The notes: generated from the sequence alone by a model not told the origin. A DNA stretch of 64,000 nucleotides from Natronomonas salsuginis (GCF_005239135.1 NZ_QKNX01000002.1:310001-374000); one strand, 5' to 3'; counted from the stretch's first letter, positions 3,639 to 34,623 are shown. Translations and numbers: made by a program.

Positions 3639-3965
3639 ATGAGCGACGAATTCAAGACACCATCCATGCCGGAACGTGATCTCATCACGGCCACCGATGA
3701 GACGAATGTCGTTCGCGCACAGTACGAGTGGTCCTCGACGGATCCCTCGACGGCGGTCATCGAAGCCGTTTCCGCGGTCGTCGAGCGAGAACCGACCAAG
3801 ATCGAACCGCTGTACAGCACCATCGATCCGGACGCGCTGAACGCGGCCATTCGGTCGGGGTCGGATGCCGCGACCACCGTGTCGTTTCCCTTTGCCGGTC
3901 GGCGCGTGACCGTACACGGAACAGGGGAGATTGCCGTCCGATCGGGAACACAGAACTTCGAGTAG
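3639..3965 (+). CDS. HalOD1 output-domain protein (left flank of glycan locus)
   Basis: A 108-residue soluble acidic protein made almost entirely of one HalOD1 domain, a haloarchaeal output domain often found at the end of signalling proteins or alone. Landmarks are the aromatic strand VVRAQYEWSSTDPSTAVIEA (about 25-45), IEPLYSTIDPDALNAAIRSG (about 53-72) and a closing GRRVTVHGTGEIAVR strand. A clear Shine-Dalgarno GGAGG sits at 3628-3632, six bases before the ATG, which is unusual in a region of leaderless genes. The next gene is a DUF7344 regulator. A second HalOD1 protein stands at the other end of the locus. The function is probably regulatory (inference). Confidence 0.82.
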   Translation: MSDEFKTPSMPERDLITATDETNVVRAQYEWSSTDPSTAVIEAVSAVVEREPTKIEPLYSTIDPDALNAAIRSGSDAATTVSFPFAGRRVTVHGTGEIAVRSGTQNFE

Positions 3966-4132
3966 GAAGACCATTCTGCGGAGACATCGCTGAAACGGAG
4001 AGCGAGAGCGATCGGGGGGATCTCGGCGGGGACCGTGTTCTGAGGACTCGTGAGGTAGTCGACACCTAACAAAGCGGCTGTCCGGAGAACGTACAGTCGG
4101 CACCACGCACGATCGGGCTACTCTCGAAAACG

Positions 4133-4660
4133 ATGGACACAGAATCAACGAAACTTCCCCAGGACACGGCGTTCGATCTGTTGAGCAACGGTCGACGGCG
4201 CCTGCTCTTACGGCGTCTGCAGGGCACCGACGGGATCGAACTCGGCGAGTTGGCGACGGAGCTAGCGGCCATCGAGAACGATCGCTCTCCCGAGGAGCTT
4301 TCGGCACAGCAGCGAAAACGAACCTACGTGTCGTTGTACCAAACGCACGTCCCGAAACTGGAGGACTCCGGCGTGGTCACCTTCGATCCGGAATCAGGGC
4401 TCGTCAGTCCGACCGATCGCGTCGACGGGCTCGTCGCGTACTTCGATACGGAGACGAACGACGTCTCCTGGCACCGGGTGTATCTCGTCGTCGCCATCGT
4501 GGGGCTGTTCGTGTACGCCCTCGCAAGCCTCCTCGGAACCCAACTCGTGCGCCCGATCTACGTCGGAACGGTCGTTCTGATCGGGATCGTCGTCGTGAGC
4601 CTCGTCCACCGGCGGTACGCCGCCCATTCCGACGCACCGACGCCAGCGATTCCGGAGTGA
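4133..4660 (+). CDS. DUF7344 winged-helix protein with two membrane segments
   Basis: A 175-residue protein. Residues about 10-105 form the haloarchaeal DUF7344 winged helix: AFDLLSNGRRRLLLRRL helix, then the hallmark QQRKRTYVSLYQTHVPKLED and a wing ending in a VVTFDPESG strand. Two hydrophobic segments follow, VYLVVAIVGLFVYALASLL and VGTVVLIGIVVVSLV, so the DNA-binding domain would be tethered to the cytoplasmic face of the membrane. It lies directly upstream of the glycan genes and has a paralogue at 33100-33780 on the far side. A role in controlling the locus is inferred from position. Confidence 0.82.
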   Translation: MDTESTKLPQDTAFDLLSNGRRRLLLRRLQGTDGIELGELATELAAIENDRSPEELSAQQRKRTYVSLYQTHVPKLEDSGVVTFDPESGLVSPTDRVDGLVAYFDTETNDVSWHRVYLVVAIVGLFVYALASLLGTQLVRPIYVGTVVLIGIVVVSLVHRRYAAHSDAPTPAIPE

Positions 4661-4900
4661 GCGTCCGACGGCTCGCCACGGAACGGACTGCAATGTTGAA
4701 ACGACGGGCGATCCACTGGGCTGTACAGTACATTTATCATCGTTGGCACGAGATATCAAGACGGCACCTCCGTACTCGCCTGTCAGCCTGTGTGCCAGCA
4801 CCTGCGGGCGCGCTTCGGGGGGCCTTTTCTGATGGAGACTCGTTCAGCAGGCGTAGAAACCGACGATGAGCGCCCGAACCGGCGATTAGCCGATATATAC

Positions 4901-4907
4901 TATTTAA
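4901..4907 (+). promoter_or_regulatory. TATA box for the oxidoreductase gene at 4930
   Basis: The sequence TATTTAA, within an AT-rich run that starts near 4892, ends 22 bp before the ATG at 4930. The spacing predicts a leaderless or nearly leaderless transcript, the usual haloarchaeal arrangement. It marks a start point for transcription of the glycan locus. Confidence 0.6.
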
Positions 4908-4929
4908 CCGCGTCGGTGTAGTTGACCCG

Positions 4930-6108
4930 ATGACATATCGTGTTGCGATAGTGGGAACCGGGGCGAATCCGGAGACACGCGGCCGCGATGGGTACGCGAT
5001 GGCGTACCGCCACGCGAAGGGGTACGAGCGCCTCGAATCGTGTTCGCTCGTCGCGTGTGCGGACATCGTCCGGGAGAACGCGGAGGCCTTCGCCGAACAC
5101 CACGATATTGAGGAGGTGTACGAGGACCACGAGGAGATGTTGGCGGCGGTAGAGCCCGACATCGTCAGCGTCTGCGTTCCGCCGGCGATCCACGCGGAGT
5201 TGGTTATCGACTGTGCGCGAGCACCGGGCGTCGAGGCCGTTCACTGTGAGAAGCCGATGGCCACCACGTGGGCGGACTGTCGGCGGATGGTGGCGATCTG
5301 TGAGGCCGAGAGCGTCCAGTTGACCATCGACCACCAGCGTCGGTTCGCGATGCCGGTGGTACGCGCGAAGGAACTGCTCGCAGCCGGGGAGATCGGGGAG
5401 CTACGGCGGCTCGAGTGGTCCGAAGTGAACCTCTTCGACGCCGGGTCTCACCTGTTCGATCTCTGCGATCTGTTCACCGACGGCGAGCGGGTCGAGTGGG
5501 TTCTCGCCGGGATCGATTACGCGCGCGAGAACCGGTGGTTCGGGGCGATCAACGAGACGCGAGCGATCTCACAGTGGCGGTACGGTGACGGGACGATGGG
5601 GTTCGCCTCGACCGCCGAAGAGGGGCCGACGCTGGTGGACGCGTACTGCAGACTCGTCGGTACCGAGGGCGAAATCGAGATCCAACCCGACGGTGGACCG
5701 CCGCTGCGGATGCGAACCGACGGAGGGTGGAAATCTATCGACACGGCCAACGAGACGGTGTACAGCTACTCGCCGGGCATCGTTACGGCGACGGCAAAGA
5801 AACTCGCGGGTGTGCTCCCGGTGACGATCGAGCGATTCGAGGACCCCCCGACGCACTACGAGCGGGCGATCGAACACCTCGTCTCGTCGCTCTCGTCGGG
5901 CGAAGAGCCGACCATATCCGGTCAGTCCGTGCTTCGGGGGACCGAACTCGTGTTCGCGAGTTGGCAATCGGCCCGTCAGCGTGGACGAGTTCATCTCCCA
6001 CTCGAGATCGACGACAATCCGCTCGAGGCGATGTACGAGGCAGGCGCACTGAACGCACCGAGAGAAACCGAGACGGACGCGACAGAGGGGGAACTGGCAG
6101 CCGACTAA
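4930..6108 (+). CDS. Gfo/Idh/MocA family NAD(P)-dependent oxidoreductase
   Basis: A 392-residue sugar-type dehydrogenase. A Rossmann fold opens with YRVAIVGTGANPETRGRDGY, continues through a DIVSVCVPPAIHAEL strand (about residues 77-91), and reaches the family signature CEKPMATTW near 107-115. The C-terminal alpha/beta domain begins after DHQRRFAMPVVRAK (about 134-147). Such enzymes oxidise, epimerise or dehydrate (often nucleotide-linked) sugars and are common in polysaccharide clusters. Substrate cannot be assigned. It is the first structural gene after the DUF7344 regulator, with its own TATA box, and probably makes or modifies a sugar precursor for the locus. Confidence 0.85.
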   Translation: MTYRVAIVGTGANPETRGRDGYAMAYRHAKGYERLESCSLVACADIVRENAEAFAEHHDIEEVYEDHEEMLAAVEPDIVSVCVPPAIHAELVIDCARAPGVEAVHCEKPMATTWADCRRMVAICEAESVQLTIDHQRRFAMPVVRAKELLAAGEIGELRRLEWSEVNLFDAGSHLFDLCDLFTDGERVEWVLAGIDYARENRWFGAINETRAISQWRYGDGTMGFASTAEEGPTLVDAYCRLVGTEGEIEIQPDGGPPLRMRTDGGWKSIDTANETVYSYSPGIVTATAKKLAGVLPVTIERFEDPPTHYERAIEHLVSSLSSGEEPTISGQSVLRGTELVFASWQSARQRGRVHLPLEIDDNPLEAMYEAGALNAPRETETDATEGELAAD

Positions 6109-6261
6109 ACGCGGGACTGAAAACCGCAACCCGGCCGTTCGATCGTCCTCCGTAGGAGTCGGACGGGGCAAAAGAGCCGCTGTTCCCGATCGGTAAGACG
6201 CGATTACCGGCCTACACATAACATATCGGGACAGTCACGTATCGCGAAACATGTAATAAAC

Positions 6262-6309
6262 AAAACACTTATCCCAATTAGGTGCAGATTACCGACCGCA
6301 TGGCACACA
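6262..6309 (+). repeat. Conserved promoter/start block, copy 1
   Basis: About 48 bp covering the promoter, the start codon (6300) and the first three codons of the secreted protein downstream. It is closely matched at 20768-20815 upstream of the other Tat-signal gene. Differences are few and lie mostly between the ACTTAT box and CAGATTACC; the tract ACCGCATGGCACACAGG differs at one position or none. It contains a TATA-like CACTTAT about 30 bp before the ATG. Confidence 0.65.
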
Positions 6310-6782
6310 GGCGGACACAGGAGACAAGTACGGACGCGCCCGATCCGGAGCGAACGACGGGAGAGAGCGACGATACGTTCAGCTTACCGCGCAGGCGGTA
6401 CGTTCGAAACGGGGCCGCGACGCTCGCAGCGCTCGTCGGCATCGCGGGACGAACCACAGCACGGCCCACGGCCGGGGAGACGGAACACCACGTCCTGATT
6501 CAGGGGACAGAGGCGGTGTCGAGATACGAACTCACCGTGGACGGCGAGCTCAAACCCGAGCGTAGAGCGAGCGAGGGCGCGAGTGCCCGGATCTCCGGGA
6601 GCAGCGCCGAGGGCGTCGTGAGAGACGGAAGCCGACGGTACCGATTCAGCGGTGGGATTCGGGACGTGGCGGTCGACGGCGACGCCGATATCTACGTCGC
6701 GACCGAACGGATCGATCCGGCGCAGGACGGCATCGAACTGCTCCGTCGGGACGTTCCGGATTTCAGCGGGCGACCCCGCTGA
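6300..6782 (+). CDS. Tat-exported small protein with haloarchaeal beta-rich domain
   Basis: A 160-residue predicted exported protein. A polar N-terminus is followed by LPRRRYVRNGAATLAALVGI, a Tat-type signal (residues about 30-50) ending near TTARPTAG. The mature part is about 105 residues, with alternating short strands: HVLIQGTEAVSRYELTVDG, SGSSAEGVVRDGSRRYRFSG and DVAVDGDADIYVATERIDP. Similar SGSS/FSGDI-type domains occur on secreted haloarchaeal surface proteins, sometimes repeated. The start at 6300 is preferred over an in-frame ATG at 6282 because the leader and first codons are conserved with 20768-20815. The function is unknown; it may bind surface polysaccharide (inference). Confidence 0.7.
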   Translation: MAHRRTQETSTDAPDPERTTGESDDTFSLPRRRYVRNGAATLAALVGIAGRTTARPTAGETEHHVLIQGTEAVSRYELTVDGELKPERRASEGASARISGSSAEGVVRDGSRRYRFSGGIRDVAVDGDADIYVATERIDPAQDGIELLRRDVPDFSGRPR

Positions 6783-6899
6783 GCGTCGGTCACGGACAGC
6801 GGAGAGCGTCGCCGTGGCTGGAACCTTGAGATCCGGAGCGGTCCGCGGACGGATAGCACCATCATAACTATCGGCCGATCACGACAGCTTCGGACACGA

Positions 6900-7493
6900 A
6901 TGTGGCCCTGGGAGCACGTCCTCTTCGCGTACATCTTTCTCTCGCTGTACATGCACGTCCGCCACCGGGCTCCGCCGGAACACCGCCCGACCGTGCTACT
7001 CGCGTTCGGATCGCTCTTTCCCGACCTCGTCGACAAGCCGCTGGCGTGGCAGTACGGGCTGTTCGAAACCGGATGGGGGATCGCACACTCGGTGTTCGTC
7101 GCAACCGCCGTCTCGTTGCTCGGCTACGTGGTGACGAGGCGGGCCAGCGCCGGGCGGGTCGGCGTCGGGTTCGGCGTGGGGTATCTCCTCCACCTCGTCG
7201 GGGATGTGATCCCGGCCTCGCTCTCGAGGGGGCGGCTGTATCTCGACCCCGTCCTGTGGCCGTTCGGGGATCCAATCACCGACATGGCGCACGAGTCGTT
7301 CCTCGGCGGCGTCGGGACGCTTTTGTTCGAGTACACGACGCAGCTCCTCGCACTGGAGATCACGCCGATCGTCGTGTTACAACTCGGGTCGGTCGCCCTC
7401 GGCGGGGCGCTGTGGATCTACGACGGTTGCCCGGGGCTCCGGGGTATCGTCGTGTGGATCCACCGCTCGATCGTCCGAGACGGGTCAGCGTGA
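6900..7493 (+). CDS. YdjM/DUF457-type membrane metal-dependent hydrolase
   Basis: A 197-residue polytopic membrane protein. It starts MWPWEHVLFAYIFLSLYMH, has the motif FGSLFPDLVDKPL at about 39-51, and then HSVF (about 64-67) and LLHLVGDVIP (about 97-106). These scattered His/Asp residues in membrane context define the YdjM/DUF457 family of inner-membrane hydrolases. About four or five hydrophobic segments are visible. Its substrate is unknown. It converges with the isomerase gene, and the coding regions overlap by 9 bp at their 3' ends. Confidence 0.85.
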   Translation: MWPWEHVLFAYIFLSLYMHVRHRAPPEHRPTVLLAFGSLFPDLVDKPLAWQYGLFETGWGIAHSVFVATAVSLLGYVVTRRASAGRVGVGFGVGYLLHLVGDVIPASLSRGRLYLDPVLWPFGDPITDMAHESFLGGVGTLLFEYTTQLLALEITPIVVLQLGSVALGGALWIYDGCPGLRGIVVWIHRSIVRDGSA

Positions 7494-8411
7494 TCGAGGA
7501 CGCTCCTCGACCGGAACCTCGCTACCGAGGAGATCGATTCCGCGCTGGATCGTACCCGCTGGATCGGCCGCCGTGTCGTCCTCGAAGACCAACCACTCGG
7601 CGTCCGTTTCGCGTGCGGCCGCGACCGCTCCCGAGAGATCGACGATGCCCTCGCCCGGCGAGGTCGAACGATAGGTTCTCGGGAAGCGCCGCGCGATCGC
7701 GACGTCGGAGACGTGGACGGACACCAATCGGTCGCCGAGCAGTTCGAACACCGACGTCGGATCGTACCCGGCGGCGACGACCCATCCCACGTCGATCTCG
7801 AACGTGAGTCCGGGCGAGGTCCGTTCGAGGAGCCGTCCGAAGCCGGTTCGATCCGAGATATCGTCACCGGAGACGAGGAGTCGCCCGAGCGCGGTCGCCG
7901 TTCGATGCCAGCCGTCCATCGGAAGTGGCACGGCGGTCACCGCGGACGGGACGAACCGATCGAGTGGCGGTGAAAAGGAGTGTCGGGCGTTGTGGTACGT
8001 GAACTCGATATTGTCCATCTCGAAGCGCTCGACGAGCGTCGTGAGCCGGTCCGCGAGCGCGTCCGTCCGCCCCGTCGTTCGGAAGTGTCCCGAGCCGGCG
8101 TGGGGGACGACGACCCGACGACAACCCGCGGTCCGACACCGATCGACGATCGCTTCGGGGTTCTCCTCGATCCGCCCCAGACCGACGTGGGCGGCGACCG
8201 GGGCGATCCCCGTCTCATCGAGGGCTGATCGAACGGTGTGCGGATCGGTTTCGAGGAACCGACCGGCGAATTCGACGCCCTCGTACCCCGCGGCAGCGAC
8301 GCGACGGATCGTCTCGGGGAGCGGTTCGGTGGCCGTCCTGAGAGAGTGAAGCTGGATCGCCGATCGGGGCGATGACGAGCGTGCGGTCGCCGGGAGAGAC
8401 TCCGATATCAT
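7485..8411 (-). CDS. Sugar phosphate isomerase/epimerase (TIM barrel, AP-endonuclease 2 family)
   Basis: About 308 residues. After a short N-terminal tail the barrel opens with SAIQLHSLRTATEPLPETIRR and AGYEGVEFAGRF. Likely metal ligands follow the family pattern: Glu in the EFAGRF strand, His in VVVPHAGSGHF, Glu in GLTFEIDVGWVV, His in LVSVHVSDVA and Glu in EWLVFEDDTA. Family members isomerise or epimerise sugars or inositols. The chosen ATG at 8411-8409 begins MISESLPATARS; a longer in-frame extension upstream lacks family resemblance. It lies downstream of, and probably co-transcribed with, the GT4 gene at 8486-9619. Confidence 0.82.
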   Translation of the reverse strand: MISESLPATARSSSPRSAIQLHSLRTATEPLPETIRRVAAAGYEGVEFAGRFLETDPHTVRSALDETGIAPVAAHVGLGRIEENPEAIVDRCRTAGCRRVVVPHAGSGHFRTTGRTDALADRLTTLVERFEMDNIEFTYHNARHSFSPPLDRFVPSAVTAVPLPMDGWHRTATALGRLLVSGDDISDRTGFGRLLERTSPGLTFEIDVGWVVAAGYDPTSVFELLGDRLVSVHVSDVAIARRFPRTYRSTSPGEGIVDLSGAVAAARETDAEWLVFEDDTAADPAGTIQRGIDLLGSEVPVEERPRSR

Positions 8412-8485
8412 TGGGTCACGTCGGCCCAGGAGACTCTTGGTAATGGATGGCTTATCGTCGCCAACGCCGAGCGCGGGGGACGATC

Positions 8486-9619
8486 TCATGCGCGTTCGAA
8501 GATCGGGCCTGAGCCCGAGCGGTCGAGTGCGAGGCGATAGACGCCGGTCAACCGCGCGGCCGCAGTCTCCCAATCCTGTTCGACGGCGTGTTCGTGGTTC
8601 GATCGACCGATGGCTTCGAGATCGGGATGCTCCCGAGCGCGACGGAGCGCTCTCGCGAGCCCGTCTGGGTCGTCCGGATCGTACAGGAAGTTCTCCCCCG
8701 GCAGCGTCTCGGGGAGACAGCCGATCGTCGGTGCGACGACCGGTATCCCGTAGGAGAGGCCGAGGTGTGCCGATCCGGAGTTGAGGATGTTCCGGTACGG
8801 TAACGCGAGGACGTCGGCTGCGTTCATGTAGTGCTGTATCCGATCGTCGGGGACGAACTCGAAGACCGTCTCGACGCCGCCGATGCCGTACGAGAGCGTC
8901 TCGAGTTCCCGCCGTAGCTCGTCCGTGTGCGGGTTACCGACGATCCACAGCTCCGTGTCGGGCGCGTCGAGCTCGACGAACGCCTCGATGAGCTCGGGGA
9001 TGCCCTTGTACTCGCGGACCAACCCGAAGAAGAGACAGACGAACGCGTCCTCGGGGATTGAGAGCTCCTCTCTGGCTATCTCCTCCGAGGCCTCGTTTTC
9101 GTACGCGGCGATGAAGTTCCCGTCCGGAACGACCGAAACGTCTGCCGGATCCGCGAACGAGTACGTCGACGCGATCGTCTCGATCGCGGCGTGGCATTTG
9201 ACCGTCACGGCGTCGGCGACCGAAAAGAGGAGTTCGTTGACGACCCGCTCGATCCGTCGATACTTCCCCTCGTGGTGCCGTTCGTTGTGAACCGTCCAGA
9301 CGACGGCGACCGGGAGCAAAGAGACGATGACGAGATCGACGAGCATCGTCACGGCGCGCAGTACCGTGGCAGCTCGATCGATCAGTTCGTCCCCGGTCGG
9401 GCTGATGATGTAGTAGTCATAGACCCAATCGAGTTGCATCACGTCGGCGTCGCGATGCGCGAGCGCGGTCCGAGTCAGCGGGAACAACAGCGGCAGTTCG
9501 GGCGTTCTGACGTCCGCACCCAGCTCCCGAAGCGCGCCTGTCGACAGCGACATGTAAGGGTTCTCCGGATAGCGCTCGCCGTCCATGAGGAGCACGGTGA
9601 GATCGTCGGCCCGGCTCAT
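8486..9619 (-). CDS. Glycosyltransferase, GT-B fold (GT4-like)
   Basis: A 377-residue GT-B protein. The N-terminal domain is atypical and carries a hydrophobic stretch, TVLRAVTMLVDLVIVSLLPV (about 93-112), that could lie at the membrane. The C-terminal donor domain is clear: VCLFFGLVREYKGIPELIEAF (about 204-224), LWIVGNP, YMNAADVLALPYRNILNSG and SYGIPVVAPTIGCLPETL, with the acidic/glycine pattern of GT4 enzymes. Acceptor and sugar cannot be assigned. It transcribes away from the flippase gene, with a 259 bp divergent promoter region between them. Confidence 0.82.
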   Translation of the reverse strand: MSRADDLTVLLMDGERYPENPYMSLSTGALRELGADVRTPELPLLFPLTRTALAHRDADVMQLDWVYDYYIISPTGDELIDRAATVLRAVTMLVDLVIVSLLPVAVVWTVHNERHHEGKYRRIERVVNELLFSVADAVTVKCHAAIETIASTYSFADPADVSVVPDGNFIAAYENEASEEIAREELSIPEDAFVCLFFGLVREYKGIPELIEAFVELDAPDTELWIVGNPHTDELRRELETLSYGIGGVETVFEFVPDDRIQHYMNAADVLALPYRNILNSGSAHLGLSYGIPVVAPTIGCLPETLPGENFLYDPDDPDGLARALRRAREHPDLEAIGRSNHEHAVEQDWETAAARLTGVYRLALDRSGSGPIFERA

Positions 9620-9878
9620 CGGTCCTCAGTGGGGGCAGTGGGGTCGAGGCTGTAGAGCGTGTGTACGTGCCCGAGAAGCGCCGAGACGTGTGCGGACATG
9701 TGAGAACGCACGGCGAATCGGATGGTAAGTATGGACCGCTTATCGGACGGTACGGAATCGCGGATCGGTGAACGCCCGACGTTACGTCCAGAATAACAAT
9801 CGTCACCTCATGCCGAGACCCGTCAATGAGCGGCGTACGATTCGACGAACACCGCCGACAGTGCACAGTGGTTCGGAG

Positions 9879-11381
9879 ATGAGAGACCGGCTGGAGCGAC
9901 TCGTCGCGCGACTGGTTCCGACCGGATCCGTGCTGCAGCGGACGGTCAAAAGCGGCATCTGGGTGTCGGCGACGAAGATGTCGCTTCGGCTGTCACAGAT
10001 GCTAATGTTGGTCATTCTCGCTCGGTTGCTCGCGCCGCGCGACTTCGGGTTGATGGGCGTCGCGCTGTTGACGCTCGCGGCGACCGAACGGTTCACCGAC
10101 ATCGGTCTCAATGCCGCGCTCATCCAACAGAAGGAGACGAACGTCGACGGGTATCTCAACACCACGTGGTGTCTCGAGATCGCGCGGGGCGTGTTGGCGT
10201 TCGGGGTCGTGTTCCTCTCGGCGCCGTTCATCGCGGCGTTCTTCAGCGAACCGGGAGCGACGAACGTCGTCCGCGTCCTCGCGCTCGTTCCGGTCCTCTA
10301 CGGTCTCCGTAACCCAGCAGTGGTGTACTTTCAGAAGGACCTCTCGTTTCACAAGGACTTCATATACAACGCGGCGGGTGCGATCTCACAGCTCGTCGTT
10401 GGCGTCGGCTACGCGCTGTACTCCCCGACCGTGTGGGCGCTCGTGTTCGCGACGATGAGCCAGCCCGCGGTCCGACTCGTTCTCTCGTACGTCCTCCACG
10501 AGTACCGACCGTGGCCGTCGTTCAACCCCGAGATGGCCAGAGAGCTCATCCACTACGGCAAGTGGATCACCGGCGCGTCGATCATGGGCTACCTCTACAG
10601 CCAGGGCGACGACGTGTTCGTCGGCTGGTATCTTTCCGCCACGGCGCTTGGATTTTACCAGTACGCCTACCGGCTGGCGGACCTTCCCGCCGCGGAGGTG
10701 TCCGGTATCATCTCGAAGGTCACGTTCCCGGCGTATTCGCGGATCCAGAGCGATATGGACGCACTCAGGGACGCGCTCTTGCAGTCGACGCGTCTCACCG
10801 CGTTCGTCGCGTTTCCGTTAACCTTCGGAATCGCACTCGTCGCCCCGAGTTTCGTCCCCGCGATCCTCGGCGAGCAGTGGACGCCGATGATCCTGACGAT
10901 GCAACTGCTCGCCATATACGGGCTGTTACACGCGATCACGCGAAACTTCGGATCGCTCTGGAAGGCGCTCAATCATCCCGATTACGTCGCAAAGCTCGGA
11001 CTCTTGCGGGTGATCTGCATCGCGATCTTGATCTGGCCGGCGACGGCCCGATGGGGCATCGAGGGGACCGCGGTGGTCGTCGTCGGCGTCTACATCTTCC
11101 CGATGTTGCCGCTCGACGTGTATCTCTCGGCGAAGGTCGTCGAGGGCCGTTCGATGCAGATCTACCGCGAATACCTCTACCCGTTCGTCGCCGCCGCCAC
11201 GATGTTCGGGAGCCTCTGGTACGCGCGCGGACTCGTCGATCTGTCACCGCTCGTCGAGTTCGCGTTCCTCGTTCCGGCGGGGACGGTGGTGTATCTCGCG
11301 GTCGCGCTCGTGTTGGAGCGGCAGTTCGACTGGGGAATCGAACGCATCATTCGGATGATATCGAACGGACTCCGGGGATGA
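9879..11381 (+). CDS. Wzx-like polysaccharide flippase (MATE/MVF superfamily)
   Basis: About 500 residues with roughly a dozen or more hydrophobic segments along its length. It opens with an amphipathic VLQRTVKSGIWVSATKMSLRL region and the helix MLMLVILARLLAPRDFGLMG, the signature start of lipopolysaccharide-biosynthesis flippases, where RLLxPxDFGL is conserved. YGKWITGASIMGYLYSQGDD (about 226-245) starts the second half repeat. It would flip a lipid-linked oligosaccharide across the cytoplasmic membrane. The ATG at 9879 was chosen; an in-frame upstream start at 9768 would add a poorly conserved basic tail. It heads a run of same-strand glycan genes. Confidence 0.9.
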   Translation: MRDRLERLVARLVPTGSVLQRTVKSGIWVSATKMSLRLSQMLMLVILARLLAPRDFGLMGVALLTLAATERFTDIGLNAALIQQKETNVDGYLNTTWCLEIARGVLAFGVVFLSAPFIAAFFSEPGATNVVRVLALVPVLYGLRNPAVVYFQKDLSFHKDFIYNAAGAISQLVVGVGYALYSPTVWALVFATMSQPAVRLVLSYVLHEYRPWPSFNPEMARELIHYGKWITGASIMGYLYSQGDDVFVGWYLSATALGFYQYAYRLADLPAAEVSGIISKVTFPAYSRIQSDMDALRDALLQSTRLTAFVAFPLTFGIALVAPSFVPAILGEQWTPMILTMQLLAIYGLLHAITRNFGSLWKALNHPDYVAKLGLLRVICIAILIWPATARWGIEGTAVVVVGVYIFPMLPLDVYLSAKVVEGRSMQIYREYLYPFVAAATMFGSLWYARGLVDLSPLVEFAFLVPAGTVVYLAVALVLERQFDWGIERIIRMISNGLRG

Positions 11382-11451
11382 GCCCACCGACAGGTTCGAA
11401 CGCCTACCCGATCGATCACGGCCTGTCGGGGGCGATGGCGGTTAGCAACAG

Positions 11452-11459
11452 TATACTAA
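11452..11459 (+). promoter_or_regulatory. TATA box for the FG-GAP gene
   Basis: TATACTAA lies 28 bp before the ATG at 11488, consistent with a leaderless transcript starting at or near that codon. It indicates a separate promoter inside the glycan locus for the FG-GAP, glycosyltransferase and heparinase run. Confidence 0.6.
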
Positions 11460-11487
11460 CCACGATCGCTCGCATCGCTTCAACGAG

Positions 11488-12741: not shown

Positions 12742-12746
12742 ACGCG

Positions 12747-13766: not shown

Positions 13767-13928
13767 TGGTTCGCCTCGAAGCGATCGAGCCGGAGTTAGC
13801 CGGTTCGTAAGTAAGTACGACAGCGACCAAGCCCGACCAATGCGTACGACGAACGTCGAGGTGCCGAGTGGTCGCGTCGTGAACCCGACCGGACCGGCAG
13901 CCGACCGAGGGGCGGGAGGACAGCAGGC

Positions 13929-17199: not shown

Positions 17200-17239
17200 G
17201 CGTCGCTTAGCTATCATAGCGTCTCTCGAAAGGCGCGAT

Positions 17240-20767: not shown

Positions 20768-20815
20768 AAAATACTTATTCCGGTTAGCTCCAGATTACCA
20801 ACCGCATGGCACACA
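20768..20815 (+). repeat. Conserved promoter/start block, copy 2
   Basis: The partner of 6262-6309. The match includes the TATA-like ATACTTAT box, CAGATTACC, the start codon at 20806 and the codons for MAHR. Outside this block the two genes share only a general Tat-signal layout, so the conservation is local to the promoter and start. Confidence 0.65.
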
Positions 20816-23729: not shown

Positions 23730-23791
23730 GTGCGGCTGACCGACGATCCGTTTCGATCGTCAGGACGGCTTCGGTGCGGTCGCCACACCGG

Positions 23792-25213: not shown

Positions 25214-25278
25214 GTTACCGCCGCCACAGCATAGTTATGGAGCTTATACCGACCTACTGAACGCCGATGGACGTCGAA

Positions 25279-26109: not shown

Positions 26110-26501
26110 TCGAATGCGATTCACGCCTCCAATCTCACCCCTTCGCTGAGGAAGACGGCCCGCGATCCGTGAGCGCACGGCGTCTCGCTTCGTACCGAGA
26201 GGGAATCGGCTCCGAGAGCCCCCAGTTGAAGGTCGCCGCGAACCCCGTAGCACGATACGGCCCAGTACATGGAGTCGGCTCGAACCGGGAGTACGTAGTT
26301 ATATATACTTTAATATAGCCGACATGAGCGGTACGCGCGTTCGATCGTGTGAGTGCCGCCTCAGCGCCTTCTCACTGGAAGCGCCTATATCCGCTTTGGT
26401 GAGCCGCACGGCCGGGTCCTCGGCGATCGCCGCGAGAGGTGAAAATCCACGTCGACGGCGCCCGCCGAAACGCCAGGGGAAACGGCGTATAAACTGACCG
26501 T

Positions 26502-27629: not shown

Positions 27630-28804
27630 TCGATCGCCGCCAGATGGAGTTCTCGAAGTCGTCTCGCGTGACCGTCCCAGGTCCACTCCTGCTCGAGGAG
27701 CCGATCGTAGCCGGCCCGCCCGAACCGGTGGAGTCGATCCGAATTGCTCGACAGACGTTCCAGCGCGTCGCGAAGCGCCGCCACGTCGCCCGGCGGGACC
27801 AAGTGGCCGGTTACCCCGTCGACGACCTGTTCGGCGACGCCGCCGACGTCGGAGGCCAACACGGCCGTTTCGCTCGCCATCGCCTCGTAGATGACTGTCG
27901 GCCGCCCCTCGGCGTGGCTCGGGAGCAAGAGGAGATCTGCCGCGGCGTACCACTCTCGAAGCGTCTCCGACGGCATCCCCGTGTAGACGTGTTCGGAGAA
28001 CTCGCTCCTCGCGATCGCGCGTCGGAAGTCGTCTTCGAGGGGGCCGCCGTGGCCGACGAAGGCGAACGTCACGTCCGAGACGTCGAGATCCGGGAGCAGT
28101 TCGATGAGCTCCGCGATCCCCTTGCGCTCCGAGAACTCCCCCACGAAGAGGACGACCGTCTCGTCGGGATCGACGTTCAGCTCGCGGCGTATCCGCGCGC
28201 GTTCCTCGACCGGAAACTCGTCGGGGTCGGCACCGATCGGAACCGTGGTTACCTTCGCCGGATCCGTGAGCGAACGGGCCGTCTCCGCGAGCGCGTCGCT
28301 CACGCAGAGCACGCCGGTCGCCGCCGACAGCGTCTCGCGAACCCGAGCGTCGACGCCCGGGGGATGCTCTCCGAACCCGTTGAGGAGTGCGCCGTGTGAG
28401 ACGACGAACAGCGGCACGTCGTGTTCGCGAACGTACGGGAGCATGCCGTAGCCGTCGGGAAAGATGTGGCAGGCGTGCACCACGTCCGGCGTCTCGAACG
28501 TTCGCTCGACGTACCGCGGGACCCGCCGAGCGTACGAGTCGCCGGAGAGACCGTACAGTAGCCGCTTGGGGAGCAGATACCAGAATCGCGGACGGTGAAC
28601 GGTGTACGCGCCGCACTCCTCGATGTCGGGGATCGAGGCATACTCCGAATACGGGCCGATCGGCGGTGCGAACGGCCGCGGAGACACCGCATCGACCGGG
28701 AGCCCGGACGCCGCGAGCGATTCGATGATGCGGTGGTTGAACAGCCCTCGGTACGGATTGATCCCGTCTGGATGGTTGATCGCGCTCGTGAGGACGGAGT
28801 ACAT
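27626..28804 (-). CDS. Glycosyltransferase family 4
   Basis: A 392-residue GT-B enzyme starting MYSVLTSAINHPDGINPYRG; an upstream ATG at 28852 would add 16 unlikely residues. N-terminal elements are VVHACHIFPDGYGMLPY and LFVVSHGALLNGFGEH. The donor domain is textbook GT4: VVLFVGEFSERKGIAELIEL (about 220-240), FAFVGHGGPLEDDFR, WYAAADLLLLPSHAEGRPTV and EAMASETAVLASDVGG. It lies between the polyprenyl-phosphate GT2 gene and the coupled second GT4, all on the reverse strand, forming a three-gene transferase operon. Confidence 0.9.
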   Translation of the reverse strand: MYSVLTSAINHPDGINPYRGLFNHRIIESLAASGLPVDAVSPRPFAPPIGPYSEYASIPDIEECGAYTVHRPRFWYLLPKRLLYGLSGDSYARRVPRYVERTFETPDVVHACHIFPDGYGMLPYVREHDVPLFVVSHGALLNGFGEHPPGVDARVRETLSAATGVLCVSDALAETARSLTDPAKVTTVPIGADPDEFPVEERARIRRELNVDPDETVVLFVGEFSERKGIAELIELLPDLDVSDVTFAFVGHGGPLEDDFRRAIARSEFSEHVYTGMPSETLREWYAAADLLLLPSHAEGRPTVIYEAMASETAVLASDVGGVAEQVVDGVTGHLVPPGDVAALRDALERLSSNSDRLHRFGRAGYDRLLEQEWTWDGHARRLRELHLAAIE

Positions 28805-28888
28805 TGCTGTCTTCAGCGTGAGTGGGGGGGGCGGATGCCCAAGAGTATGCACCGATTATCGGCGACCGACGGCCACCGAACGGTTCGA

Positions 28889-29926
28889 TCACCGATTGGC
28901 GAATTTGAGGACCGACCGGGGGGCGTTCGGATACGCGAGCCAGGTGGCGACGATGAGGCCGCCCGCCGCCAGCCCGACCGCCTGGGTTGTTCCACCCAGC
29001 CCGAACACCGCGGCCGCCGACGCGAACGCCAGGAGGCCCACGAGAGCCCCCGCGAGGAACCGGATGGATCGCGTCGAGAACAACTCCGCGAAGATCGCTT
29101 TGAGGAGCGCCAGCCCGTGCGTGATCGGATGGTGGCTGCTCGGCTCATCGATGTCGTACTCGATGATCGTCGAAACCTCCTCGACCTCGAACCCCTCGCG
29201 GGCCGCGCGAAAGAGGATGTCGAGGCTGGCACCCATCCCCTCTCCGATCTCCCCGCTCCGTGCGAAGGTTTCAATCGCGTCGCGTCTGTACGCCCGGAAC
29301 CCGCTTTGGGTGTCCGCGGCGGTCGTCGTCGAGTAGCGGAGCCAGATACCGGCGTTCGTCAGCGCGTTGATCACGAGGAGGCCGAGGCGGCGGTACGCCG
29401 GAAGGCTGGTTTCGGAGTCGCCGACGAATCGACTACCGACGACGATCTCCGCCCCGTTCGCCCGCTGGACATCGAGGAGTTTCGGGATGTCGTCCGGGTC
29501 GTGCTGTCCATCCCCGTCGAGGATCACGAGCTGTTCGCTACCGGTCTCTCGCGCGCGCTCGAAGATTGTCCGCAGGGTCGCGCCGTATCCCCGGTTGCTC
29601 GAATGTGCGACGACCGTCGCACCCGCATCGCGTGCGCGCTCCACCGTTTCGTCCTCGCTCCCGTCGTCGACGACGACCACTTCGTCGGCGTATCGGGCGG
29701 CCGCGGTCACGACGTCTGCGATCATCTCTGCCTCGTTGTATGCCGGAATACCGACCATGACGATCCCGGTCGAGCGTCGGCTGTCGACCGCCCGAACGGC
29801 CGCGCTCGATCCCCGCCGCGCCCGATGATCCCGTTCGTACTCGAAGGGGCGACGAGCGTGTCCGATGGAGGGGTCGTCCATACGAGCCATCAGGCGCCGG
29901 TCTCGGCGGGGAATGCGTCTTGTCAT
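28889..29926 (-). CDS. Polyprenyl-phosphate glycosyltransferase (GT2, AglJ/DPM1-like)
   Basis: About 345 residues. GIVMVGIPAYNEAEMIADVV, EVVVVDDGSEDET, SSNRGYGATLRTIFERA, LVILDGDGQHDPDDIPKLL and EIVVGSRFVGD give a complete GT-A core of the dolichyl-phosphate hexosyltransferase type. Two C-terminal hydrophobic helices follow (FLAGALVGLLAFASAAAVFG and QAVGLAAGGLIVATWLAYP). It would charge a lipid phosphate with a sugar, possibly the first sugar of the repeat unit. The start is uncertain: ATGs at 29926, 29890 and 29881 are in frame before the core. An AT-rich promoter-like stretch lies at about 29987-30010. Confidence 0.82.
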   Translation of the reverse strand: MTRRIPRRDRRLMARMDDPSIGHARRPFEYERDHRARRGSSAAVRAVDSRRSTGIVMVGIPAYNEAEMIADVVTAAARYADEVVVVDDGSEDETVERARDAGATVVAHSSNRGYGATLRTIFERARETGSEQLVILDGDGQHDPDDIPKLLDVQRANGAEIVVGSRFVGDSETSLPAYRRLGLLVINALTNAGIWLRYSTTTAADTQSGFRAYRRDAIETFARSGEIGEGMGASLDILFRAAREGFEVEEVSTIIEYDIDEPSSHHPITHGLALLKAIFAELFSTRSIRFLAGALVGLLAFASAAAVFGLGGTTQAVGLAAGGLIVATWLAYPNAPRSVLKFANR

Positions 29927-30598
29927 CGTTACTCTGCCCCGTCGGAGTGACACCCGAACCGGGGCATACCGGAGGTTGGTCAAAGACGGAAATTGTTACA
30001 AACAACATAATCGCCGCCCCCGTCGAATCGTTCGAAATCCGGGGACGACTGGTCGAACGGATCGGTCAACGGGTGGGGGGAAGCCTCGACCGTTCACGGA
30101 CCCGTGATGCGGTCCATCACGGGGTAACGAACACATACCGGAGCCGCGCTTGGGAACGCCAGTGGTTCAGCAGCGCACACGGTAGCAACAACTCTCGAGC
30201 GAGCGAACAGACGTGCACGGCTGAAAAGCGTCGACACCCGTTCGCCGAGCGGTACCCCCGGGCGGTACTTGCGCGACTGACCGGCGATGGAGAGGACCGT
30301 CTGCTCGGTTGGGGGGCGAACGCGTTCGCGAGGCGGGTGGCGAAGACGGTGTATAACAAAGCCTGAAACTGCGGTTGTGACGAACGACAGTGACCGACGG
30401 CCGCCGAGGATCGGCGTCGATCGGACACCGACTATCCATGTCACACAACACACCACGAGCCACCCCACAGGTCGTCGACGGAGTAGCGGCGAAATCGCCC
30501 GTGGTCGCGGCGTTACCGACCGCGAAACGACTCGGGTGGGCCGCCCACAGCTCGACGGACCCCCGACGGCGGGGGGATCTCTCAGCAAGGAGCTCACA
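29927..30598. other. Divergent intergenic region without a supported gene
   Basis: About 670 bp between the reverse-strand glycosyltransferase operon and wecB. Reading frames on both strands lack family resemblance and carry arginine/serine-rich shadow composition. An AT-rich stretch at about 29987-30010 probably holds the reverse promoter. A GTGTATAACAAAG stretch at about 30350-30362 resembles a forward TATA box, which would give wecB a leader of some 210 nt. No hairpin of note was seen. It might hold a decayed gene or a long regulatory leader. Confidence 0.4.
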
Positions 30599-31699
30599 AT
30601 GAGCGAACACGTCGCCTTCGTGTTAGGAACCCGCCCGGAGATCATCAAGCTCGCCCCGGTGATCCACGCCTGTTCGGACGCGATGCTCCCGTACACGATC
30701 GTTCACACCGGGCAACACTACTCGGAGTCGCTGGACTCCGTGTTCTTCGAACAGTTGGATCTACCCGACCCGGCGTACAATCTCGGCGTCGGTTCGGGAA
30801 GCCACGGCAAACAGACCGGCGAGATGCTGATTCGAATCGAGGAGACGCTCGAGGAGATCGACCCCGATACCGTCCTGGTTCAGGGGGACACGAACAGCGT
30901 GCTCGCCGGGGCCATCGCGACGAGTAAAACCGACATCGACCTCGGCCACGTCGAGGCGGGACTGCGGAGCTTCGATCGACGCATGCCGGAGGAGACGAAC
31001 CGGGTCGTCGCCGACCACGTCTCCGAACACCTGTTCGCGCCGACGGCACAGAGCGAACGGCAGCTCCGCCGCGAGGGGATCGAGGCGGAACGGATCACGG
31101 TGACTGGGAACACCGTGGTCGACGCGGTGTATCGGAACCGCGAACTCGCCCGCGAGAAGAGTACGGTGCTCTCGACGCTGGGGCTCGACGGACGGGCATT
31201 CGTGTTGATGACGGCCCACCGAGCCGAGAACGTCGACGACGAGGCGCGGTTTCGCTCGATACTGCGCGGCGTCGACCGGGCGGCGCGAGAACGCGATGTC
31301 GAGGTCGTGTACCCGATACACCCGCGTGCGGCGAAGCGACTCGACGACTTCGGAATCGATGTCCCGGACCGAATCCGGACGATCGAGCCCCGAGAGTACC
31401 TCGACTTCCTTCGGCTGGAGGCGGAGGCAGACCTGATCGTCACCGACTCCGGGGGCGTTCAGGAGGAGGCCTGCATCCTCGGCGTCCCGTGCGTGACGAT
31501 GCGCGACAACACGGAGCGTCCCGAGACCATCGAAGTCGGAGCCAATCGGCTCTGCGGTGCCGATCCGGAGGCGATCGTCCGGATAGTGGACGAGATGTGG
31601 GACGTCACCTCCGACTGGGAGAACCCGTTCGGCGACGGGGACGCGAGCGAGCGCATCCTCGAAACGCTCGGCGTGAGCGTCGAGCGAGGTGTCGCATGA
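30599..31699 (+). CDS. wecB: UDP-N-acetylglucosamine 2-epimerase (non-hydrolysing, WecB)
   Basis: A 366-residue enzyme of standard length that interconverts UDP-GlcNAc and UDP-ManNAc in the cytosol. Motifs are FVLGTRPEIIKLAPVIHAC (about 6-24), VHTGQHYSESLD, VLVQGDTNSVLAG, GHVEAGLRSFDRRMPEE, MTAHRAENVDDEARF and LIVTDSGGVQEEACILG, including the conserved Asp, Glu and His catalytic residues. The ATG at 30599 follows a GGAG stretch. Its stop overlaps the start of wecC (ATGA), so the pair is coupled and together makes UDP-ManNAcA. Confidence 0.95.
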   Translation: MSEHVAFVLGTRPEIIKLAPVIHACSDAMLPYTIVHTGQHYSESLDSVFFEQLDLPDPAYNLGVGSGSHGKQTGEMLIRIEETLEEIDPDTVLVQGDTNSVLAGAIATSKTDIDLGHVEAGLRSFDRRMPEETNRVVADHVSEHLFAPTAQSERQLRREGIEAERITVTGNTVVDAVYRNRELAREKSTVLSTLGLDGRAFVLMTAHRAENVDDEARFRSILRGVDRAARERDVEVVYPIHPRAAKRLDDFGIDVPDRIRTIEPREYLDFLRLEAEADLIVTDSGGVQEEACILGVPCVTMRDNTERPETIEVGANRLCGADPEAIVRIVDEMWDVTSDWENPFGDGDASERILETLGVSVERGVA

Positions 31700-32991
31700 G
31701 CACCGTCTGCGTCCACGGGATGGGCTACATCGGCCTCCCGACGGCGACGATGCTGGCCAACTACGACCACCGGGTGTTCGGCTACGACACGGACGCCGAG
31801 GTCCGTTCGAAACTCCGAAACGGGAACGTCCACTTCGAGGAGCCGGGACTCCGCGCGTTCGTCACGCAGGCGCTCGAATCCGAGCAGTTGGAGATCACGG
31901 ACGAAGTGCTCCCGGCGAAGTATCACGTCATCTGCGTCCCAACGCCGTTCGACGAGGAGTCGAAGGAGGCGGATCTCGCGTACGTCCGGTCGGCCGGGCG
32001 AGCGGTCGCCGAACACCTGCGTCGCGGCGACACCGTGATCTTGGAATCGACGGTACCGCCGGGAACGACCGAGGGGGTGTTGGGCCCGATCCTCGAGGAG
32101 TCGTCGCTGTCGGCGGGCGACGACTTCTCGCTCGTTCACTGCCCCGAGACGGTACTCCCCGGCAACATCATCACCGAACTCCGGGAGAACAACCGGATCG
32201 TCGGCGGCGTCAACGCCGTCTCGGCCGAATCGGCGGTGCGACTCTACGAGTCGTTCGTCGACGGCGACATACGGACCGCGACGGACGCGACGGTGGCCGA
32301 GTTCGTCAAACTGATTCAGAACACGTTCCGCGACGTCAATATCGCGTTAGCCAACGAGATAGCGATGCTCGCCGACGATTACGGGGTCGACGCCCGCGGC
32401 GCGATCGATCTCGCCAACAGCCATCCGCGGGTCGACATCCTCCAGCCTGGCCCCGGCGTCGGCGGCCACTGTCTGCCGATCGATCCGTGGTTCCTGGGCG
32501 ACGGATCGGATCGCCTCGACCTCATCTCGACCGCGCGTCGGATAAACGACGGGATGCCGGGGTACATCATCGAGCTACTCCGCGATGAGCTCGGCGATCT
32601 CAGGGGCCGGACCATCGCGATCCTCGGCGTGGCGTACAAGGGCGACGTCGGCGACACGCGAATGAGCCCAGGGCTGGCGTTGGCCACCCAACTACAGCGC
32701 GCCGACATCGCGCAGCCGGCCGCGACCGACGGTGGGGCCGAAACCGCGAGTGGGCCCGCGGTGACGATCCACGACCCACACGTGGCCGACTCGACGCTCA
32801 ATCTCTCCGATCTGAAGACCGCGACGACGGGCGCGGACGCGATCGTCATCGCGACCGATCACGACGAGTTTGAGTCGCTCGATCCCGACGACCTCCGCGC
32901 GTGGATGGCGGGCGACGTGGTGATCGACGCGAAAGGAGCGCTATCGGCATCGGCGTGGCAGCGATCAGGATTCACCGTTCGTTGTATTTAA
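31696..32991 (+). CDS. wecC: UDP-N-acetyl-D-mannosamine dehydrogenase (WecC)
   Basis: A 431-residue nucleotide-sugar dehydrogenase that oxidises UDP-ManNAc to UDP-ManNAcA with NAD. The Rossmann start is VCVHGMGYIGLPTATMLANY, followed by CVPTPFD (about 76-82) and ILESTVPPGTTEGV. The catalytic cysteine lies in GPGVGGHCLPIDPWFLG near residue 259, with the Lys/Asn region EFVKLIQNTFRDVNIALANE before it. ILGVAYKGDVGDTRMSP opens the C-terminal domain. An Ala/Thr/Gly-rich insertion of about 20 residues (about 340-355) is a halophile feature. It is coupled to wecB by a 4 bp overlap and is the last structural gene of the glycan locus. Confidence 0.94.
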   Translation: MSTVCVHGMGYIGLPTATMLANYDHRVFGYDTDAEVRSKLRNGNVHFEEPGLRAFVTQALESEQLEITDEVLPAKYHVICVPTPFDEESKEADLAYVRSAGRAVAEHLRRGDTVILESTVPPGTTEGVLGPILEESSLSAGDDFSLVHCPETVLPGNIITELRENNRIVGGVNAVSAESAVRLYESFVDGDIRTATDATVAEFVKLIQNTFRDVNIALANEIAMLADDYGVDARGAIDLANSHPRVDILQPGPGVGGHCLPIDPWFLGDGSDRLDLISTARRINDGMPGYIIELLRDELGDLRGRTIAILGVAYKGDVGDTRMSPGLALATQLQRADIAQPAATDGGAETASGPAVTIHDPHVADSTLNLSDLKTATTGADAIVIATDHDEFESLDPDDLRAWMAGDVVIDAKGALSASAWQRSGFTVRCI

Positions 32992-33007
32992 ATGCTTGTT
33001 CTCGCGA

Positions 33008-33035
33008 ATTTCTTTAATATTTAAGTTTTAATATG
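33008..33035 (+). terminator. T-rich stretch after wecC, probable terminator
   Basis: Just past the wecC stop there is an AT-rich stretch containing several short T runs (TTTCTTTAATATTTAAGTTTT). Archaeal termination generally follows T-rich tracts rather than hairpins, so transcription of wecBC probably ends here. The same AT-rich stretch may also belong to the promoter of the DUF7344 gene downstream. Confidence 0.4.
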
Positions 33036-33099
33036 TAATTAACCGATCTCGGGCTGTCGATACTAGAGAGTAGTTACCTACTAACAAGGACCCTTAGAG

Positions 33100-33780
33100 A
33101 TGTTAGCGACTCCTATGGCAACTGATGGTAGGGGAGGGATGGTAGAATGGTCCACGGACGAAAACGCGGTCTCGCCGAACCCGAACGGTCGGGAGTTGTC
33201 GATAGACGCCGAGCAGCTCGACGACCTGCCGGGGAAGAAGCGACAATGCGACGGCGAACTCGACATCGGGGACGTCTTCGAGCTGTTGAAAAACGAACGG
33301 CGACGGCGAGTCATACGGTTCTTGAACGAACAGGAGGACGGCGTGACGACGCTGAACGTGATGGCCGAACACATCGCCGCACTCGAAAACGACATCGACG
33401 TGTCGCAGCTCTCGTCGAGTCAACGCAAGCGCGTGTATATCGGGCTCTACCAGTGTCATCTCCCGAAGATGGACGAGTACGGCGTCATAGATTTCCAGAA
33501 GAACCGCGGTATCATTACGCTCAAGAACACGACGCAGCTCGAATCGTATCTCCCGAACGAAGACGGCGAGGGATCGGCCACGGAGGACCGAACCGAGACA
33601 GGCGACGTGGGCGACGTGGACGCGGAAGCGAACCTCGAACGGTCCGATCTGTTCGCCGCCTCGGCGATCGCGGCGGCGGTGGCGATCGGCGCGGTGGGGC
33701 TCGGCCCGCTCGCCGCCGTCCCCAGCGGACTCTGGATCGCCGTGAGCCTCGTCGCGCTCCTCTGGTTCGCGCGAAACTGA
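33100..33780 (+). CDS. DUF7344 winged-helix protein, right-flank paralogue
   Basis: A 226-residue protein. The DUF7344 domain lies at about 55-145: VFELLKNERRRRVIRFLNEQ, then SSQRKRVYIGLYQCHLPKMD and YGVIDFQKNRGIITL. An acidic linker leads to two C-terminal hydrophobic segments (ASAIAAAVAIGAVGLGPLAA; GLWIAVSLVALLWFA). Layout and motif match the protein at 4133-4660, though the N-terminal tail is longer. An ATG at 33115 is an alternative start. Placed directly after wecC and before a PadR regulator, it likely takes part in controlling the locus (inference). Confidence 0.8.
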   Translation: MLATPMATDGRGGMVEWSTDENAVSPNPNGRELSIDAEQLDDLPGKKRQCDGELDIGDVFELLKNERRRRVIRFLNEQEDGVTTLNVMAEHIAALENDIDVSQLSSSQRKRVYIGLYQCHLPKMDEYGVIDFQKNRGIITLKNTTQLESYLPNEDGEGSATEDRTETGDVGDVDAEANLERSDLFAASAIAAAVAIGAVGLGPLAAVPSGLWIAVSLVALLWFARN

Positions 33781-33992
33781 TCCGCACACACTTCCGAACA
33801 CGGACCGTGTACGGAGCGGCGTATCGTTCGGCGTACTCCGCGAGCCGATCGGTTAGTGTCAGCGTTTCGCGGCGACGGGCGTTGGTGGGTGCGGCTTACC
33901 GGCTGGCGGGCGGCTCGGCCGCCGAGACGAATCGAACCGGTTCACTCGTTTTCATATTCCTAACAATATACCGTGAGATTCCCATTGTGTAC

Positions 33993-34277
33993 ATGTTCGA
34001 TCTCACCGCCTTTCAGCGAGATGTGCTGTACGTTACGGCAGGGCTGGACCGGCCGTCCGGACAGCGGATCAAGTCCGAACTGCAGAAGTCGATCGACAGG
34101 ATCACCCACGGACGGCTGTATCCGAATCTCGATACACTCGTCGAACAGGGGTATCTCAGCCAGGGACAGATCGACCGGCGAACGAACTACTACGAGTTGA
34201 CCGACCAAGGCGAGAGCATCATCGTCGATCGGCGCCGGTGGGAAGACTCCTACGTCGACATCGATGCGATGTCGTAA
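33993..34277 (+). CDS. PadR family winged-helix transcriptional regulator
   Basis: A 94-residue single-domain PadR regulator. FDLTAFQRDVLYVTAGLD forms the first helix, HGRLYPNLDTLVEQGYLSQG the recognition helix and turn, and TNYYELTDQGESIIVDRRRW the wing; YELTDQG is the family hallmark. It has no ligand domain beyond the short C-terminal helix. It lies between the right DUF7344 and right HalOD1 genes, completing a small cluster of regulators beside the glycan locus. The upstream 212 bp show no other gene. Confidence 0.88.
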   Translation: MFDLTAFQRDVLYVTAGLDRPSGQRIKSELQKSIDRITHGRLYPNLDTLVEQGYLSQGQIDRRTNYYELTDQGESIIVDRRRWEDSYVDIDAMS

Positions 34278-34284
34278 GTAACGG

Positions 34285-34623
34285 TCAGCGGCTCCGAAGC
34301 GGCGTCTCGCCGTCGGTGGGGGGATACGCGATGACCTGCCCGCTTCGATAGACGGTGATGGTGCATCCGTCGTGTGTGAACGTCAGATGGTCGTTCGAGC
34401 GATCGTCGAGACACTTGTTCCGGAACAGCTGGTCGAGCGCGTCCGGATCGACCGACTCCGAGAGCGGCGGTCCGGAGCTCGGCTCCTCGCCGGAAAGAGC
34501 CAAGATCACGTACGTGACGGTTTGGCTGAGTGGATTCGACGATGTCCAGTCGTGGTGAAGGTGATACGACCCCCGGATCGGATCGTATCCGAGTTCATCG
34601 GCTTCGTGTTCTGGTTTCGCCAT
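34285..34623 (-). CDS. HalOD1 output-domain protein (right flank of glycan locus)
   Basis: A 112-residue HalOD1 protein. GSYHLHHDWTSSNPLSQTVT, SESVDPDALDQLFRNKC and CTITVYRSGQVIAYPPT align in order with the domain of the left-flank protein at 3639-3965 (DPDAL and the closing strand are the clearest matches). It converges on the PadR gene, with 7 bp between the stops. No sensory domain is attached. Its role is presumably regulatory through a partner protein. Confidence 0.8.
   Translation of the reverse strand: MAKPEHEADELGYDPIRGSYHLHHDWTSSNPLSQTVTYVILALSGEEPSSGPPLSESVDPDALDQLFRNKCLDDRSNDHLTFTHDGCTITVYRSGQVIAYPPTDGETPLRSR

Follow-up and report, generated by a model that had tools for sequence, protein, structure and literature searches.

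In a stretch of 64,000 nucleotides from Natronomonas salsuginis (G000:C2:310001-374000, within a 2.9-Mb assembly; hereafter the window), a genomic island of surface-glycan genes harbors two regulators of the DUF7344 family, together with two HalOD1 proteins and one PadR-type protein. We propose, with moderate confidence, that this island is a self-contained regulon under the two DUF7344 proteins, a pair of membrane-tethered winged-helix regulators (hereafter A and B) belonging to two separate clades. This reading rests on the joint occurrence of A and B with glycan genes in other haloarchaea and on an octamer, TAACAAAG, shared by the promoters of such loci. The features of the window are the following:

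2119..34770, both strands: genomic island with the PhnM gene, all the regulators and the glycan genes; its flanks lie close together in two congeners
2237..2244, plus strand: octamer TAACAAAG ahead of the PhnM gene, exact match, with A at -10
2330..3475, plus strand: PhnM-like alpha-D-ribose 1-methylphosphonate 5-triphosphate diphosphatase (NCBIfam NF011990, 424 bits)
3639..3965, plus strand: left HalOD1 (PF18545, 75.1 bits)
4067..4074, plus strand: octamer TAACAAAG, 66 bp before DUF7344-A
4133..4660, plus strand: DUF7344-A, winged helix and C-terminal membrane hairpin (PF24035, 96.4 bits)
4930..6108, plus strand: Gfo/Idh/MocA sugar oxidoreductase (PF01408, 82 bits)
8486..29983, both strands: glycosyltransferases and other glycan genes (Pfam GT1/GT2, heparinase II/III-like, DUF1616), among them 12747-13766, 13929-15266, 15253-17199 and 17339-18223 on the plus strand and 8486-9619, 26502-27629, 27626-28804 and 28889-29758 on the minus strand
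9879..11381, plus strand: Wzx-like polysaccharide flippase (PF13440, 274 bits)
30354..30361, plus strand: octamer TAACAAAG upstream of the WecB-dehydrogenase pair, 245 bp before the chosen WecB start
30599..31699, plus strand: WecB, UDP-GlcNAc 2-epimerase (TIGR00236, 411 bits)
31699..32991, plus strand: UDP-sugar (UDP-ManNAc type) dehydrogenase (TIGR03026, 387 bits)
33139..33780, plus strand: DUF7344-B, winged helix and C-terminal membrane hairpin (PF24035, 93.9 bits); 33139 is a likelier start than 33100
about 33990..34277, plus strand: PadR-type winged-helix regulator (PF03551, 44 bits)
34285..34623, minus strand: right HalOD1 (PF18545, 67.5 bits)
34667..34674, minus strand: octamer TAACAAAG upstream of the right HalOD1, lacking the A at -10

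The initial annotation had placed five regulator genes at the two ends of the locus, and the Pfam search confirmed their positions: all five proteins exceed the gathering scores of their families (27.8 bits for PF24035, 26.3 for PF18545 and 27 for PF03551). The two C-terminal membrane segments that it had assigned to the DUF7344 proteins were also recovered, each protein ending in two hydrophobic segments. The core QRKRxYxxLYQxHxPK is indeed present in both; however, it is a signature of the whole family and thus no evidence for a special relationship between the two.

The AlphaFold2 models of A and B, based on 13 sequences, display a winged helix and, after it, a hairpin of two helices (predicted local distance difference test, pLDDT, 83 and 76, respectively), with about 20 residues between the wing and the first membrane helix in A and about 40 in B. 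In structure comparisons the winged-helix domain resembled RosR, ArsR/SmtB and MarR proteins (VIA Z 9-11.5 over about 72-97 residues, with a sequence identity of only about 17-24%); the best VIA match was Halobacterium RosR (6qfd, Z 11.5, root-mean-square deviation 2.4, 89 aligned), and Foldseek retrieved SrnR (7p6f, E=2e-3). Nearly all long DUF7344 proteins carry C-terminal hydrophobic segments, which the short ones lack. No HAMP match was found by Pfam in the DUF7344 proteins of the window, relatives of DUF7344-A were not found in phages, and a literature search whose cover left out subscription papers retrieved no mention of DUF7344.

In a tree of 88 DUF7344 proteins the left protein belongs to clade A, which has 20 rows and a support of 98/88, and its right counterpart to clade B (27 rows, support 99/92). 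They are 39% identical over the domain, and in the ranking of paralogues of the left protein the right one comes only seventh. The initial annotation had also considered an insertion between a duplicated pair, and one similar gene at either end would fit it; nevertheless, the low identity, the rank among paralogues and the two supported clades contradict this explanation, the regulators lie inside the island, and we dropped it as hardly credible. The two HalOD1 proteins of the window are not mutual closest relatives either. Moreover, the type of locus clusters on the DUF7344 tree (14 changes of the glycan label vs 28.5 after shuffling). A and B appear to be an ancient, non-duplicate pair that has been kept together.

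Both families are abundant in the source genome (14 HalOD1 and 14 DUF7344), so chance proximity needed testing. In eight genomes, 7 of 49 DUF7344 clusters had a HalOD1 within 2 kb (0.7 expected); two of these seven pairings are the ends of the window locus, which leaves 5/47 without it. In the same genomes, a glycosyltransferase was found no further than 10 kb from 9 of the 24 long, high-scoring DUF7344 clusters (2.6 expected, P=3e-4), and short ones show no excess of such proximity. The possibility that some pairs of two abundant families simply happen to adjoin glycan loci is in keeping with the copy numbers and with the presence of HalOD1 at many unrelated loci, but it is contradicted by these proximity enrichments, by the co-occurrence enrichments and by the named replicates described below, and we regard it as very improbable.

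Further loci were sampled within one taxonomic family from high-scoring DUF7344 matches, so that the following frequencies are not population estimates. Window included, each of the 15 loci with both A and B contains two or more glycan genes, and HalOD1 is present in 12 of them, vs 1/28 and 2/28, respectively, of the loci with other DUF7344 types (Fisher test of A-or-B loci vs the others, 3e-8 for glycan genes and 1e-4 for HalOD1). With near-duplicates collapsed, B occurs in the same 20 kb at 12/16 A loci vs 8/36 other DUF7344 loci (P=5e-4). By profile score, A and B were present in each of six more plasmid loci, together with glycan genes (6/6) and HalOD1 (5/6). PadR homologues were found at five other DUF7344 loci vs none of 40 random loci. 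Outside the window, A and B range from adjacent to 36 kb apart, at or around sugar-nucleotide and glycosyltransferase genes; they mostly diverge in orientation, with UDP-sugar genes or nothing between them, and are sometimes 30 kb apart.

Named replicates were taken from plasmid records as independent cases. On Haloarcula hispanica pHH400, where A is HAH_RS18910 and B is HAH_RS19015, RdfA/Sph genes, a GAF gene, HalOD1 and A (the latter two on the plus strand) are followed by AglF, a glycosyltransferase, Gfo, a flippase, further glycosyltransferases, a sulfatase, AsnB and DUF1616, and the array ends with a winged-helix gene, B (plus strand) and PhnM; this layout of about 30 kb is near-identical to that of the window, with identities of 51% for Gfo, 49% for the flippase, 48% for PhnM, 42% for A and 47% for B. 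Haloarcula marismortui pNG700 shares the arrangement of pHH400 (HalOD1-A, 30 kb, B). In Halorientalis litorea the order is A, DegT, Gfo, dehydrogenase, B and PadR, and in Haloferax mediterranei and Haloferax alexandrinus (in the latter, A was assigned by position and not by score) A adjoins B, with PadR, HalOD1 and glmS/glmM/glmU. Replicates also come from Salinibaculum, Halobaculum, Halolamina, Halomarina and Halobellus. On Halorubrum lacusprofundi pHLAC01 (L255, 25682-26368), B is seemingly split into two reading frames, the adjoining A being intact.

The regions upstream of the clade-A genes contain the motif GTAACAAA in 19 of 25 sequences (five at most in shuffles); the regions upstream of the B genes have no common motif beyond the divergent regions shared with A. 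The octamer TAACAAAG is about 100-fold enriched in A/B loci and oriented towards genes: 50 copies were counted in the A+B loci (316 kb), vs a single one in random loci (800 kb), one in loci with other DUF7344 types (560 kb) and two in HalOD1-only loci (400 kb). In six hold-out loci it was found 15 times in 164 kb (9.1 per 100 kb), and it was absent from those random loci that had glycan genes but lacked A/B. Loci with A have 3.05 sites on average, those without A 0.17. The window has four octamers (0.17 expected), all inside the island, preceding PhnM, DUF7344-A, WecB and the right HalOD1. Among the 64 sites of the A or B loci, 15 stand in front of DUF7344-A, and most of the others precede genes for acyltransferase, GlmS, Gfo, glycosyltransferase, DegT, DUF354, sulfatase, WecB, PadR, HalOD1 and DUF7344-B.

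The distance from the octamer to the start codon peaks at 30-39 bp, values of 31-39 bp being frequent. Passages of PMC4574771 describe leaderless transcripts as common in haloarchaea; combined with this distance, they would put the octamer at about the position of the TATA box. In 92 aligned sites, A at -10 is present in 95% and G at -11 is almost never found, which indicates a half-repeat 11 bp upstream of the octamer; A/T is enriched 21-22 bp downstream. The extended element reads G[TA]A[AG]-N6-[AG]TAACAAAG. In the source genome three of its six occurrences fall within the island, which represents 1.1% of the sequence (P=3e-5), and in three relatives 4/6, 3/6 and 3/5 fall within their A/B loci; two relatives (G004 and G024) have many sites outside such loci.

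The dedicated surface-polysaccharide switch suggested by the initial annotation thus has strong comparative support (A/B with glycan genes across genera, HalOD1 following them, and the shared octamer), the regulation itself being a prediction from sequence. We propose that A and B, each with an N-terminal winged-helix DNA-binding domain and a C-terminal two-helix hairpin, would control the promoters of the island marked by the octamer. The latter may be bound by A together with B, perhaps as a heterodimer; the membrane hairpin would sense the state of the envelope, HalOD1 might feed a signal into the A/B module, and PadR or winged-helix proteins of the HVO_A0261 type might adjust it. One such octamer lies ahead of the A gene too, which makes autoregulation of the system probable.

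Several data weigh against this proposal. B predicts the octamer nearly as well as A does, and the two co-occur too frequently to be separated. Two A loci (L090 and L135) lack the exact octamer, L135 and Haloarcula carrying GTAACAAAAC instead. No strong palindromic operator was found upstream of A or B, the direct-repeat octamer having emerged instead, nor is there a clear palindrome of the symmetric winged-helix dimer type. Long DUF7344 clusters show no excess within 5 kb of a glycosyltransferase (2/24, 1.5 expected), the excess appearing at 10 and 20 kb. As for HalOD1, it is missing from 3 of the 15 A+B loci, the left one of the window has no octamer, and a dedicated HalOD1 clade for A/B loci was looked for and not found. 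Finally, the position of the octamer at the TATA box equally fits a special general transcription factor.

This last point leads to another explanation, possible but clearly the less probable, in which the octamer would be a core-promoter variant recognized by a paralogue of the TATA-binding protein (TBP) or of transcription factor B (TFB), or by a different winged-helix protein of the locus (HVO_A0261 type or PadR), while DUF7344 travels along and acts elsewhere, e.g., in envelope stress. The octamer is found at the TATA-box position in many genes, the A/T enrichment downstream of it resembles a -10 element, TFB genes lie close to some loci (L131), and several TBP and TFB are in use in haloarchaea (PMC4390858). 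On the other hand, sites restricted to these islands would be surprising for a general factor, and glycan loci devoid of A/B carry no octamer. Concerning the local proteins, 7/8 A loci without an HVO_A0261-type gene still have 2-6 sites, and PadR is missing from most of the site-bearing loci.

HalOD1 is a looser partner of the DUF7344 pair. The two window proteins (108 and 112 residues) have HalOD1 as their sole Pfam match and thus do not belong to the REC-HalOD1 response regulators; the HalOD1-DUF7344-A gene order recurs in Haloarcula. HalOD1 alone was rejected as a glycan-linked element: none of 20 HalOD1-only loci contained two or more glycan genes, and in the eight genomes HalOD1 without a nearby DUF7344 showed only a weak excess within 5 kb of a glycosyltransferase (6/39 clusters, 2.2 expected, P=0.02) and none within 20 kb (8/39, 6.9 expected). 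A second, different kind of gathering was observed at L084 (G000:C1:417.5-423.8 kb), where three short DUF7344, three HalOD1 and two TrmB-type regulators lie within about 6 kb and no glycan genes were found.

In Haloarcula and Halosimplex, RdfA/Sph genes stand beside A/B, and paralogous pairs of RdfA and Sph shape genes adjoin DUF7344/HalOD1 sugar loci (L104, L108, L115, L122, L135, L203-L206, L249 and L253). These neighbourhoods hint at a link between shape and glycans. RdfA was discarded as a general partner, the A+B pair occurring only in four Halosimplex loci among 34 RdfA loci of named genomes; in two other RdfA loci, a DUF7344 of another kind is found at a distance of about 7-10 kb.

As for the extent of the island, two congeners (G009 and G029) have the counterparts of 1654-2103 and 34751-36109 near each other, separated by a single unrelated gene of about 1.3 kb, with no island gene in between. 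This delimits the island to about 2119-34770, every regulator included. The locus is probably an acquired surface-glycan island, although a loss in the congeners, rather than a gain here, would also fit. Its absence from two congeners and the frequent location of related loci on megaplasmids would suit a horizontally moving surface-variation cassette, whose regulators are relics or selfish passengers without a joint role. We consider this improbable, since A and B persist as a pair in different genera despite turnover of the intervening glycan genes, and the octamer has been conserved in front of regulators as well as enzymes.

The glycan genes of the island span 4930-32991 and comprise, according to Pfam, Gfo/Idh, a Wzx-like flippase, several GT4/GT2 glycosyltransferases, heparinase II/III-like and DUF1616 proteins, WecB, a UDP-sugar dehydrogenase and two pectate-lyase-like proteins. 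The latter are convergent (21030-23729 and 23792-25213) and represent possible glycan-modifying enzymes. A lone PhnM gene, with TAACAAAG upstream, occupies the edge of the island; in Haloarcula it adjoins DUF7344-B (L249, 36818-37963).

A bolder version of the regulon proposal, which we consider doubtful, would have a membrane-tethered A-B heterodimer replacing or blocking TBP at the TATA-position octamer, so that the state of the envelope, relayed via DdfA-related HalOD1, switches sugar-coat islands; other DUF7344 subfamilies might act likewise at pilin and signal-peptidase (DUF1102/DUF5305) loci. Regarding such subfamilies, some adjoin a conserved signal peptidase/DUF1102/DUF5305 module (L083, L088, L089, L098, L101, L111, L123, L129, L217 and L257), and one clade always adjoins a type IV pilin gene and an Mrp antiporter cluster (L105, L109, L125 and L134). 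Loci L096, L102, L103, L126 and L130 contain tandem copies of an unnamed protein family of 390 residues, most of them with two DUF7344 of different subfamilies.

The control of surface polysaccharides in haloarchaea is little known. The present proposal names regulators (DUF7344), a defined cis-element and a delimited group of targets, and the presence of the A/B system in cultured species, e.g., Haloarcula hispanica and Haloferax mediterranei, makes it open to direct genetic tests. It may also tie surface sugars to cell-shape genes (RdfA, Sph and DdfA-like HalOD1).

Among known systems, ArnR and ArnR1 of Sulfolobus acidocaldarius are two paralogous membrane-bound one-component regulators of surface structures (PMC6396743). 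In architecture, which is compared here rather than homology, the predicted DUF7344 proteins are alike, with an N-terminal helix-turn-helix and two C-terminal membrane helices (model and hydropathy). However, in ArnR a HAMP-like and a sensory domain separate the helix-turn-helix from the membrane, whereas DUF7344 has only a short linker, and the ArnR boxes are found at archaellum and pilus promoters (PMC6396743), in contrast to the different octamer at glycan islands. GvpE and its upstream activating sequence (UAS) in haloarchaeal gas-vesicle clusters (PMC4390858) share a locus-encoded regulator and a short two-part DNA element by the core promoter; nonetheless, GvpE is leucine-zipper-like, and its two 8-nt boxes lie 4 nt apart beside the B recognition element (PMC4390858), unlike the octamer with a 4-nt half-repeat, an 11-bp period and a TATA position. 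DdfA (HVO_2176) is a HalOD1 protein for disk formation and shape in Haloferax volcanii (PMC10869688). It is likewise a stand-alone HalOD1, and RdfA and Sph-like genes are also present at some A/B loci; however, the window HalOD1s score 61.7 and 47.4 bits with NF053557 (DdfA), below the curated equivalog threshold of 70, and the window island lacks RdfA/Sph. Passages of PMC5847659 present stand-alone HalOD1 proteins as similarly short, single-domain haloarchaeal signalling proteins, and those passages link them neither to DUF7344 nor to glycan islands. CsmR of Haloferax volcanii was rejected as a candidate relative, being described as Lrp/AsnC-like. ArnR/ArnR1 is therefore the closest working analogue and GvpE/UAS the closest haloarchaeal element, and neither matches in domains or DNA element; A and B with their octamer look like a dedicated, so far undescribed on/off system for the haloarchaeal sugar coat.

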